64,000 nt of DNA. Origin: Leisingera caerulea DSM 24564 (GTDB lineage Bacteria > Pseudomonadota > Alphaproteobacteria > Rhodobacterales > Rhodobacteraceae). The position numbers and the translations under genes were made by a program. The DNA is taken from positions 252,340 through 316,339 of the forward strand of contig NZ_KI421514.1 of NCBI RefSeq assembly GCF_000473325.1. Reading direction: 5' to 3'. Of the stretch, positions 36,906-40,086 are shown piece by piece; positions within the stretch are counted from its first letter, which is position 1; the number at the start of each line of letters is the position of its first letter. The notes beneath the pieces are model-generated. The model had not been told where the DNA came from and did not search any database. It saw nothing but the letters and a program-made list of their open reading frames with translations.

Positions 36906-37334
36906 ATGCCCCTCAAATACCTGCACACCATGGTCCGGGTGAAGGATCTGGAGAAATCCATGGCTTTCTATGAACTGCTGGGCCTCAAGGAGACCCGCCG
37001 CTGGGAAAACGAACAGGGCCGCTTCACCCTGATCTTCATGGCACCGCCGGGCCAGGAGGAAACCCCGCTGGAGCTGACCTACAACTGGGATGGCGACGAC
37101 GCGCTGCCCGATGACAGCCGCCATTTCGGCCATCTCGCCTATGGGGTGGACGATATCTATGCCACTTGCCAGCACCTGATGGACAATGGCGTCACTATCA
37201 ACCGGCCGCCGCGCGACGGGCATATGGCCTTTGTGCGCTCGCCCGACAATGTGTCGATCGAGCTGCTGCAGAACGGCGACTCGCTGGCCCCGGCGGAACC
37301 TTGGGCGAGCATGGAAAACACCGGCCACTGGTAA
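36906..37334 (+). CDS. gloA: Lactoylglutathione lyase (glyoxalase I)
   Basis: A 142-residue VOC-fold enzyme that isomerises the methylglyoxal-glutathione hemithioacetal. The metal ligands are readable: His in YLHTMVRVKD, Glu in PLELTYNWD, His in FGHLAYGVDD and Glu in SIELLQN. NRPPRDGHMAFVRSPDNV is a standard glyoxalase I segment. The length is that of bacterial GloA. A GC-rich hairpin follows the stop. Confidence 0.95.
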   Translation: MPLKYLHTMVRVKDLEKSMAFYELLGLKETRRWENEQGRFTLIFMAPPGQEETPLELTYNWDGDDALPDDSRHFGHLAYGVDDIYATCQHLMDNGVTINRPPRDGHMAFVRSPDNVSIELLQNGDSLAPAEPWASMENTGHW

Positions 37335-37674: not shown

Positions 37675-37914
37675 CTATGCCGATTGCTGCTGATTGAAGC
37701 CCGGCAGCCCGCTGCGGCGCAACTGACCCAGGCAGCGCATGATCTCATCCTTGGTCCGCAGGCGCTGGCGCTTCAGCCCTTGCAGCATCATGCTGCACGG
37801 CGACGGGCGTTTCAGCTCCTTGGCGATTTTCGCCTTCAGCGACTGATGTTTCAGGCGCAGCTTCGCCAGCCTCACCTGCAGCGAGAAAACCTTTACCCGT
37901 GGACTGTTGTTCAT
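37675..37914 (-). CDS. DUF465 (YdcH-like) small coiled-coil protein
   Basis: A 79-residue basic, helical protein. RLAKLRLKHQSLKAKIAKEL and LQGLKRQRLRTKDEIMRCL follow the DUF465/YdcH pattern of two helices with the LKxxKLxLKDEI motif. The ATG at 37914 has GGAGG before it. It is divergent from the OxyR-like regulator, and the ATAG-N7-CTAT box lies between them, so it is a likely regulator target. Role unknown. Confidence 0.65.
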   Translation of the reverse strand: MNNSPRVKVFSLQVRLAKLRLKHQSLKAKIAKELKRPSPCSMMLQGLKRQRLRTKDEIMRCLGQLRRSGLPGFNQQQSA

Positions 37915-38019
37915 CAATTGCCTCCTTTTTCCTGTGTCAGGCGGCGCGGCAAGCCGCGGCCTCACAGTCAAGATGGGCAGGCATTGCATTTTAAGAACCC
38001 AATACTATTGTCCTTTAAG

Positions 38020-38034
38020 ATAGGTTTTTCCTAT
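38020..38034. promoter_or_regulatory. OxyR-type ATAG-N7-CTAT site in the divergent promoter
   Basis: ATAG (38020-38023), seven bases, CTAT (38031-38034) matches exactly the half-site of the OxyR consensus. It lies 21 bases before the OxyR-like ATG and about 105 bases from the divergent DUF465-like gene. A further CTAT at 38005-38008 is not at the canonical spacing. Confidence 0.65.
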
Positions 38035-38055
38035 ATCTTGCGAGGAGAGCCACAG

Positions 38056-38979
38056 ATGCCGGAAATCACCCTGCGCCAGCTCCGCTATTTCGCCGTCCTC
38101 AGCAACGCCTTGCAGTACCGCAGCGCAGCCCGGCAACTGGGGATCAGCCAGCCCTCCCTCAGCTTGCAGATCGCCGCCCTGGAGAAAGCCCTGGATACCC
38201 GGCTGATCGAACGGCGGCGCAACGGCCTGATCCTGACCCCGGCAGGGCGCAACACCGCGGCCCAGGCCGAAAGGATCCTGCAGGACGTGGAACGGCTCAG
38301 CCAAACCGCCGGCGCCTCCGGCAACGCTCTGGACGGCACCCTGCGGCTGGGGTCTTCGCCGACAATCGGCCCCTACCTGCTGCCGCGGGTGCTGCGGCGC
38401 CTGCATCAGTCTTTTCCGGACCTCAAGCTGGTCATCCGCGACGCTCCCCCGCGCGAGCTGACCGAGGATCTGCTGGCGGGCCGGCACGATCTGATCCTGA
38501 CCCAGCTGCCGGTGCCGCGCGATGACATCCGCCACACCTTCCTGTTCCGGGAGCCGCTGAGCCTGGCCGTGGCCCGGGATCATCCCCTGGCCGGCCGGAG
38601 CCGGGTGAAGACCGCGGATCTGGACGGGGAGAACCTGCTCAGCCTCAACCCGTCTTACACGCTGAGCCGCCAGGTATCGCAGCTCTGCGCGGCATCGGGG
38701 GCGAACCTGCGCGAGGATTTCGAAGGCACCAGCCTTGATGCGCTCCGCCAGATGGTATCGCTCGGCATGGGCGCAACCCTGCTGCCTGCGCTTTATGTCG
38801 AGTCCGAGGTGAAACGCGGCGAAGGCGATGTCGCCGTGGTTCCCATGCAACCGCTGCTTTACCGGCAGGCAGGCCTCGCCTGGCGCCGCAGCAGCGGCAG
38901 CCCGCCTGCCTTCCTAATGCTTGCAGATTTCATCCGCAGCGTCATCGAGCAGGAGTTTGCCAATCAGGTGATTTTGTAA
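38056..38979 (+). CDS. OxyR-like LysR-family regulator lacking the peroxidatic cysteine
   Basis: A 307-residue LysR-type regulator. The winged helix is at residues 1-65 (TLRQLRYFAVL, SQPSLSLQIAALEKAL) and the effector domain is at 90-300. The C-terminal half reads like OxyR: EDFEGTSLDALRQMV and GATLLPALYVE are hallmark segments. In OxyR the sensing pair lies in a GHCxxxxxxxxC stretch. Here the first cysteine position is Thr202 while the second, Cys211, is kept. So peroxide sensing by a disulfide is unlikely. The ATG at 38056 has GAGGAG before it. An OxyR-type box lies just upstream. Confidence 0.85.
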   Translation: MPEITLRQLRYFAVLSNALQYRSAARQLGISQPSLSLQIAALEKALDTRLIERRRNGLILTPAGRNTAAQAERILQDVERLSQTAGASGNALDGTLRLGSSPTIGPYLLPRVLRRLHQSFPDLKLVIRDAPPRELTEDLLAGRHDLILTQLPVPRDDIRHTFLFREPLSLAVARDHPLAGRSRVKTADLDGENLLSLNPSYTLSRQVSQLCAASGANLREDFEGTSLDALRQMVSLGMGATLLPALYVESEVKRGEGDVAVVPMQPLLYRQAGLAWRRSSGSPPAFLMLADFIRSVIEQEFANQVIL

Positions 38980-39512: not shown

Positions 39513-40010
39513 TTAGTAGATATAGCGGATCTGATCCGACCAGTAGCGCTCCACCCGCTTGAGCGAGGCGGTGATATCCTCAATCCCCTGCGAGGAGATC
39601 ACGTTCTTGCCCTCCAGCCCCTCGGCATGGCGGGAGAACAGCGCCGACACGATATCGCGGATCTCGCGGCCGCGCGGGGTCAGCCGCACCCGCACCGAGC
39701 GGCGGTCGATTTCACAGCGCTGGTGGTGCATATAGCCCATCTCGACCAGCTTCTTCAGGTTGTAGCTGACATTGCTGCCCTGATAGTAACCGCGGGTCTT
39801 CAATTCCCCGGCAGTCACCTCGTTGTCACCGATGTTGAACAGCAAAAGCGCCTGAACCGCGTTGATTTCCAGCACGCCAACGCGTTCAAACTCGTCCTTG
39901 ATGACATCCAGCAGCAGACGGTGGAGACGCTCGACAAGGGCCAGCGCCTCCAGGTAGCCAGTCATGAAACCTTTCCGGTCTGTCTGGCCAATTGGCATTT
40001 CCATACTCAT
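39513..40010 (-). CDS. MarR-family winged-helix regulator
   Basis: A 165-residue MarR-like regulator. LEALALVERLHRLLLDVIKD opens the helical dimer interface. EINAVQALLLFNIG, then GELKTRGYYQGSNVSYNLKK, gives the recognition helix, and RRSVRVRLTPRGREI is the beta wing. The GYYQGSNVSYNL pattern is that of the LdtR/PetP alphaproteobacterial subgroup rather than classical MarR. The chosen ATG at 40010 follows GGAG with six bases; longer starts are in frame. No drug or efflux gene is next to it. Confidence 0.82.
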   Translation of the reverse strand: MSMEMPIGQTDRKGFMTGYLEALALVERLHRLLLDVIKDEFERVGVLEINAVQALLLFNIGDNEVTAGELKTRGYYQGSNVSYNLKKLVEMGYMHHQRCEIDRRSVRVRLTPRGREIRDIVSALFSRHAEGLEGKNVISSQGIEDITASLKRVERYWSDQIRYIY

Positions 40011-40086
40011 TCGCATCTCCGACTCGAATTTGCTTCTAAGACAAGATGCCAACAATTCCCGAAAAATCGGTTAAGCCGGTATTTTA

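Follow-up and report, generated by a model that had tools for sequence, protein, structure and literature searches.

Organisation of the regulator locus

The window, i.e. the whole 64,000-nucleotide stretch of the Leisingera caerulea DSM 24564 genome that was analysed, carries a LysR-type regulator gene and, divergent from it, a gene for a small basic protein of the DUF465 family. The features of this locus are the following:

38056-38979, plus strand: LysR-type regulator gene, 307 aa, OxyR fold, Thr202 in the place of Cys199 and a single cysteine, Cys211
38042-38047, plus strand: Shine-Dalgarno-like GAGGAG of the regulator gene (from the sequence, by eye)
38020-38034, no strand: palindromic putative operator ATAGGTTTTTCCTAT (ATAG-N7-CTAT), 21 bp before the start codon
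37995-38003, no strand: second conserved element GAACCCAAT, at a fixed distance upstream of the box
37675-37914, minus strand: divergent gene for the DUF465 (PF04325) small basic protein, 79 aa, ATG at 37914

The reading frame of the regulator opens at the ATG at 38056 and ends at 38979. Position 38020, taken as the start in an earlier note on this DNA, is the first base of the box; it holds for the element and not for the gene. The Pfam domains HTH_1 and LysR_substrate both score above their cut-offs, which makes the protein LysR-type by domain content, and the divergent partner gene, with a palindromic T-N11-A site in the promoter that the two genes share, is the arrangement of a LysR-type regulator. 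Pfam DUF465 was found with 44 bits in the longer reading frame of the partner, 37675-37989.

The top NCBIfam model for the regulator is OxyR with 192 bits (cut-off 329), the next being GltC with 141. The OxyR cut-off is not decisive here, because the genome's own two-cysteine OxyR, with 255 bits, likewise falls under 329. This canonical OxyR has both cysteines (GHC...FC) and adjoins a katG-like reading frame (katG by eye); for Rhodobacterales and Rhizobiales, a published account places oxyR upstream of katG (PMC11975290). A position of the regulator in the CbbR/CcmR branch was rejected, since its NCBIfam CbbR score is 89 bits compared to 192 with OxyR, and six further members of the clade described below gave 92-107 bits with CbbR compared to 195-250 with OxyR. 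The AlphaFold2 model of the regulator has a pLDDT of 91.7 with OxyR chains as the best PDB matches, and the resemblance of its effector domain to OxyR (TSLDALRQMV...GATLLPAL), noticed earlier, is real in the alignment to 1i69/1i6a.

Two other genes lie close by: an LdtR-like MarR-family regulator downstream (39513-40055, minus strand; NCBIfam 232.8 bits, cut-off 250) and, close to DUF465, a lactoylglutathione lyase-like gene (36906-37334, plus strand; NCBIfam 100 bits, cut-off 120).

A clade of OxyR-like proteins without Cys199

Pairwise alignment to 1i69/1i6a places Thr202 opposite Cys199 of E. coli OxyR, as the earlier note had proposed, and the same pairing (Thr202/Cys211 with Cys199/Cys208) comes out of a multiple alignment that includes full-length E. 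coli OxyR, Cys211 being the retained equivalent of Cys208 in both alignments. Judged from these alignments, the peroxidatic Cys199 of two-cysteine OxyR is absent. Cys211 is the only cysteine in the whole regulator, and the idea that a different cysteine supplies the peroxidatic site was rejected, as no second one is present. With just one cysteine an OxyR-type intramolecular disulfide is impossible, so that the supposed absence of disulfide-based sensing is borne out.

Among the best 120 of 2441 homologs at E 1e-40, none has a cysteine at position 202 (0/120), the residue there being Ala in 51, Thr in 41 and another in 28; Cys is found at position 211 in 58/120, and 45/120 contain no cysteine at all. 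The closest ortholog, from Leisingera aquaemixtae (L061, 92% identical), has Ser at 211 and zero cysteines, and still has the exact box and the DUF465 neighbour. The Cys211 equivalent is kept in 48/60 clade rows, namely at 19/22 clade loci of other families compared to 29/38 rows of the window genome's family, and the clade loci of other families have His, Arg, Gln or Tyr at 202. With Ser in the 92%-identical ortholog, Cys211 is not conserved, and the regulator does not have the conserved single sensing cysteine of a 1-Cys OxyR.

The loci were taken, mostly as best matches, from samples of 295 family, 120 family, 21 genus, 385 class and 150 phylum genomes, and the gene starts of the relatives were extrapolated from tblastn. 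L146 and L061 represent one species; the former was left out of the box counts and of the promoter columns anchored on the box, both are included in the DUF465 (61 loci), pocket (60 rows) and Cys208-equivalent counts, and L146 alone is in the transport count. Homologs at E 1e-60 or below were found in 7/21 same-genus and 43/295 sampled family genomes, and because of this restricted presence the role of the regulator is accessory.

For a first tree the 137 rows were reduced to 93 by locus number; in it all 42 rows that lack Cys199 fall into a single clade with support 99/99, apart from the Cys199-bearing OxyRs. The second tree, of 41 rows with other LysR genes as the outgroup, recovers the 20 rows without Cys199 as a clade at 100/100. 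One two-cysteine protein groups with the Cys199-less clade, at 95/57 in the 93-row tree and 100/96 in the 41-row tree:

L184:1423-2376, minus strand, and L184:2466-3470, plus strand: two-cysteine OxyR-like protein and divergent TerC-like gene

The L184 locus, in which the TerC-like gene is divergent from the OxyR-like gene, has no exact box; as the sister of the clade in the best tree, its protein is a possible intermediate. The best tree implies a single old loss of Cys199, and the AU test, in which monophyly of the two-cysteine rows as a whole was not rejected (p = 0.264), leaves standing the alternative that Cys199 was never present. On either course, the absence of Cys199 is ancient in the clade. 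A recent loss in the window regulator was rejected, no homolog or clade row examined having Cys199.

We compared the effector pocket of 60 clade rows with that of 64 Cys199 rows. T129, which together with its neighbours we take to contact peroxide in OxyR, is replaced by Pro in 56/60 clade rows. At R201, where 62/64 OxyR rows have Arg, the 60 clade rows include 41 with His, 10 with Ser, 3 with Tyr and 3 with Asn; A147 is replaced by Gln in 41 of 60; and H114 (56/60) and D225 (59/60) are fixed in the clade rows, not in the OxyR rows. The residues round the peroxide site change together, in a pattern more in keeping with a new ligand site than with decay. Because the pocket substitutions are themselves conserved in the clade, the regulator looks like an altered sensor rather than a broken one. 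In view of the transport genes beside many relatives (see below), the clade may sense a signal other than peroxide. The suggestion of a recently degenerate OxyR was not upheld, as Cys199 is missing from all clade rows examined and the replacement pocket residues are themselves conserved.

In two-cysteine OxyR, Cys208 is the resolving residue and not the peroxidatic one, which argues against a one-cysteine thiol sensor in which Cys211 alone would be converted to sulfenic acid and switch the protein. Such a sensor has a precedent in DrOxyR of Deinococcus radiodurans, whose one conserved cysteine, C210, is described as needed for H2O2 sensing and as being oxidised to sulfenic acid (PMC2225504). 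The mutagenic primer printed in that paper translates to FDQVMHW[C210A]ADAGFT, which by eye aligns with the E. coli OxyR segment around Cys208 and not with Cys199, so that by the printed primer and the published description DrOxyR and the window regulator share a single cysteine in the Cys208 region; the Cys208 equivalent is, moreover, common in the clade, both in the other families and in the window genome's own (counts above). However, the cysteine that is needed for sensing in DrOxyR, as published, is replaced in close relatives of the window regulator: the 92%-identical ortholog with Ser211 lacks it and has the box and the DUF465 neighbour, and cysteine-free proteins make up 45/120 of the best 120 of 2441 homologs. 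We regard this kind of sensing as unlikely here; given where the primer puts C210, it stands as a rival reading for those clade members in which the residue is kept.

A further described protein, Dinoroseobacter shibae OxyR1 (Dshi_0727), is one of three OxyR-like proteins of that organism and accumulated under thiol stress (PMC8007024). Compared by the published description, it shares with the window regulator the presence of only the Cys208 equivalent, and it may be a member of the Cys199-less clade.

The ATAG-N7-CTAT box in the clade and at OxyR promoters

The earlier note was right in placing an exact ATAG-N7-CTAT half-site in the regulator's own divergent promoter: ATAGGTTTTTCCTAT is the single such match in the window. 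An exact box was found within 200 bp in 45/68 clade promoters, compared to a base-shuffled mean of 0.185, and a box with at most one mismatch in 62/68, compared to 4.3, the shuffles preserving base composition only. It is the exact count against its shuffled mean, and not the single match, that puts the box above chance. The exact boxes of the clade promoters lie at -81 to -16 from the start. When the 62 promoters with no more than one mismatch are aligned on the box, an A stands at -23 from the box start in 32/32 loci of the first family samples and 29/30 of the rest, and a CAAT-like stretch, less marked outside the family, is found at -20 to -17. This upstream element is about one LTTR dimer spacing away from the box. 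We infer that the regulator binds the box, and GAACCCAAT is likely a second LTTR contact site. A sigma-70 promoter over the box was considered and rejected, the scan of 37850-38120 having given no match.

In the rest of the genome, ATAG-N7-CTAT has 10 matches, compared to 8 for the reversed control pattern. One of the 10 exact sites is before the regulator, one at L105, one at L111 and seven are inside called frames; the box of the regulator itself also falls within a spurious open frame, about 597 codons long, in which the regulator gene lies. The stricter form ATAGG-N5-CCTAT occurs in 2 copies in 5.34 Mb (control 0), of which one is at the regulator gene and the other inside a thiolase-like reading frame, so that outside reading frames the strict box is unique; with up to one mismatch it gives 40 matches compared to 46 for the control. 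A use of the box as a genome-wide regulon marker was rejected, the counts of 10 versus 8 and 40 versus 46 being near control. The L105 site (1501-1515, ATAGGTGAAATCTAT) is an exact ATAG-N7-CTAT at another LysR gene of the same genome, placed 4 bases before or overlapping the called LysR start and opposite a solute-binding-protein-like gene (by eye), and the L111 site stands before a hydrolase-like reading frame.

The promoters of same-family oxyR genes hold the exact box in 1/30 and a box within one mismatch in 8/30. Six of those 8 sites overlap the oxyR start, among them that of the window genome's own oxyR, where ATAGGTTTTGATTAT, a one-mismatch relative of the box, lies over the start. The canonical oxyR promoters of this set (L115-L144) share, by eye, another array, GATTAG...TTAAGTTGCATTTTCTGAT...CGATAAG, running into the start codon. 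For the Cys199-bearing OxyR promoters of the wider phylum (n = 34, E. coli included), the exact box is found in 10/34 and a box within one mismatch in 23/34, and at one of them, L170, the 15-mer is identical to the window box. Since 23/34 of these promoters have it within one mismatch, the box alone is no clade marker. Near the regulator gene, the best fit to the 37-mer OxyR consensus has 9 mismatches, and one exact half-site is present. By these counts, the half-site is OxyR-like and the clade holds it more strictly than the OxyRs do; cross-binding with OxyR is conceivable. The retention of OxyR DNA specificity, which had been suggested for the regulator, is made plausible by the sharing of the box with OxyR promoters.

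Gene neighbourhoods and proposed role of the regulator

A DUF465 ortholog (61-100% identity) adjoins the regulator in exactly the same 7/21 same-genus genomes that have the regulator; of the other 14, 13 have only matches of 25-31% identity and one has none. A DUF465 profile, trained on the same loci in which it was counted, is positive in 31/61 clade loci, compared to 0/30 canonical oxyR, 0/33 wider Cys199 and 1/29 other LysR loci (same genome; E 0.004), the genome's own OxyR locus sitting in two of the control sets (L003, L115). Ten of the profile matches were checked by Pfam: 8 are PF04325 at E 0.01 or better, 7 of them above the cut-off, and L188 and L041 gave no PF04325 match. By its position and co-occurrence, the DUF465 gene is likely to be the regulator's partner and one of its targets; instead of selection for the co-occurrence, the pair may have been gained and lost as a block. 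DUF465, an uncharacterised family and the commonest clade partner in the loci seen here, would thereby gain a regulatory context. At one clade locus (L231), three DUF465-like profile matches lie within about 2 kb of the regulator.

Near other clade members we found genes for MrpA, NhaA, SbtA with a P-II-like partner and a BicA-like SulP protein, and also carbonic anhydrase, TerC/Alx, UspE-like and isocitrate dehydrogenase genes. Pfam and NCBIfam matches back those transport-set neighbours that were tested; the BicA-like, UspE-like, MrpA (L037), carbonic anhydrase and isocitrate dehydrogenase proteins score under the NCBIfam equivalog cut-offs, in some cases where the locus ends inside the gene. 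In a tblastn search with one representative query each, at least one transport-set gene was found within 1.5 kb at 24/59 clade loci and at 1/92 control loci (1/33 wider Cys199, this being TerC at L184, 0/30 and 0/29); the queries were picked after viewing the clade neighbours, so that the contrast with the controls is partly built in and the shared theme is not. Within about 5 kb, 28/40 wider clade loci have a transport-set gene, and none of the set was found in that range on each side at the other 12 (L212, L220, L221, L224, L231, L232, L235, L237, L238, L239, L245 and L251). In the window genome, the regulator has no transporter gene next to it. As there is no such neighbour and the strict box occurs just once outside reading frames, the ion and carbon theme is carried over to the window regulator from relatives that are about 39-51% identical.

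We consider that the regulator is probably a ligand-responsive, self-regulating LTTR tied to ion and inorganic-carbon homeostasis. A small ligand would be bound in the rebuilt effector pocket, in place of OxyR disulfide sensing. The tetramer would sit on the ATAG-N7-CTAT box and the upstream element and, following standard LTTR behaviour, would repress its own promoter, while ligand binding would change the expression of the divergent gene, here DUF465. Because antiporter, bicarbonate import, carbonic anhydrase and similar genes lie near clade members, the signal is probably tied to cell Na+, pH or inorganic carbon, or to a metabolite connected with them, for example 2-oxoglutarate.

The locus could also be an ordinary local LTTR divergon with a generic T-N11-A site, DUF465 as its sole target and, in the relatives, ion and carbon neighbours that are unrelated acquisitions. 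The generic LysR site T-N11-A has been described in an extended form, CTATA-N9-TATAG (PMC5002191), the clade neighbours vary between lineages, and outside reading frames the window genome has the strict box only once, all of which would suit such a divergon. However, separate lineages have functionally matching partners (MrpA, NhaA, SbtA with P-II, BicA-like SulP, carbonic anhydrase), and these partners are almost never found in the control loci, so that we judge a purely local role improbable. A variant of OxyR locked in one state, binding OxyR sites as a constitutive form or an antagonist of the true OxyR, as the earlier note had supposed, would agree with the OxyR fold, the OxyR-type half-site at its own promoter, the two-cysteine OxyR beside a katG-like gene in the same genome and the one-mismatch boxes at 8/30 family (including ATAGGTTTTGATTAT) and 23/34 wider oxyR promoters, but it is very unlikely given the clade-wide conservation with its own fixed pocket residues, the exact box at just 1/30 same-family oxyR promoters, which leaves an antagonist without direct support, and a strict box found in the genome only at the regulator gene and inside the thiolase-like frame.

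The ligand-responsive LTTR that we favour differs from E. coli-type OxyR, its nearest family by sequence, with which it shares the fold and the ATAG-N7-CTAT half-site, by the lack of Cys199, the rebuilt pocket and the adjacency of DUF465, not katG; OxyR has a tandem array of half-sites, whereas the window holds one exact half-site and a conserved, unlike upstream element. In cyanobacteria CcmR, described as a CbbR homolog, regulates itself, sbt, ndh-I3 and mnh, and bic in one species, with 2-oxoglutarate and NADP+ as co-repressors (PMC3401165). By that description, CcmR/NdhR is likewise an autoregulated LTTR, whose regulon partly matches the gene classes near the clade; however, it belongs to the CbbR branch and the window regulator to the OxyR branch, and in view of the scores of 89 bits with CbbR and 192 with OxyR the likeness is one of gene content alone. 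We put forward, tentatively and with more doubt than belief, that the clade is an OxyR-branch LysR family of the Alphaproteobacteria and at least one other class whose signal is linked to a metabolite or an ion, in place of thiol redox sensing, and whose targets are Na+/H+ antiport, bicarbonate import and carbonic anhydrase, as the counterpart of the CcmR circuit on a different LysR branch. In the literature searched, we found no link between the Cys199-less OxyR-like clade and these transport genes.

If this holds, the regulator would be one of Na+, pH and inorganic-carbon homeostasis that has gone unrecognised and can be tested through one conserved operator. Many of the named homologs among the best 120 of 2441 are labelled 'hydrogen peroxide-inducible genes activator', and the name of a peroxide regulator would then mislead for the whole branch. 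The clade together with L184 would offer a natural series for how the OxyR sensor domain changes its signal.

Additionally, in L236 (G084) and L046 (G235) the clade regulator has a second, similar LysR gene immediately upstream, with UspE-like matches nearby, and in L213 an ion-channel-like gene (Pfam Ion_trans) is found downstream of the clade regulator.
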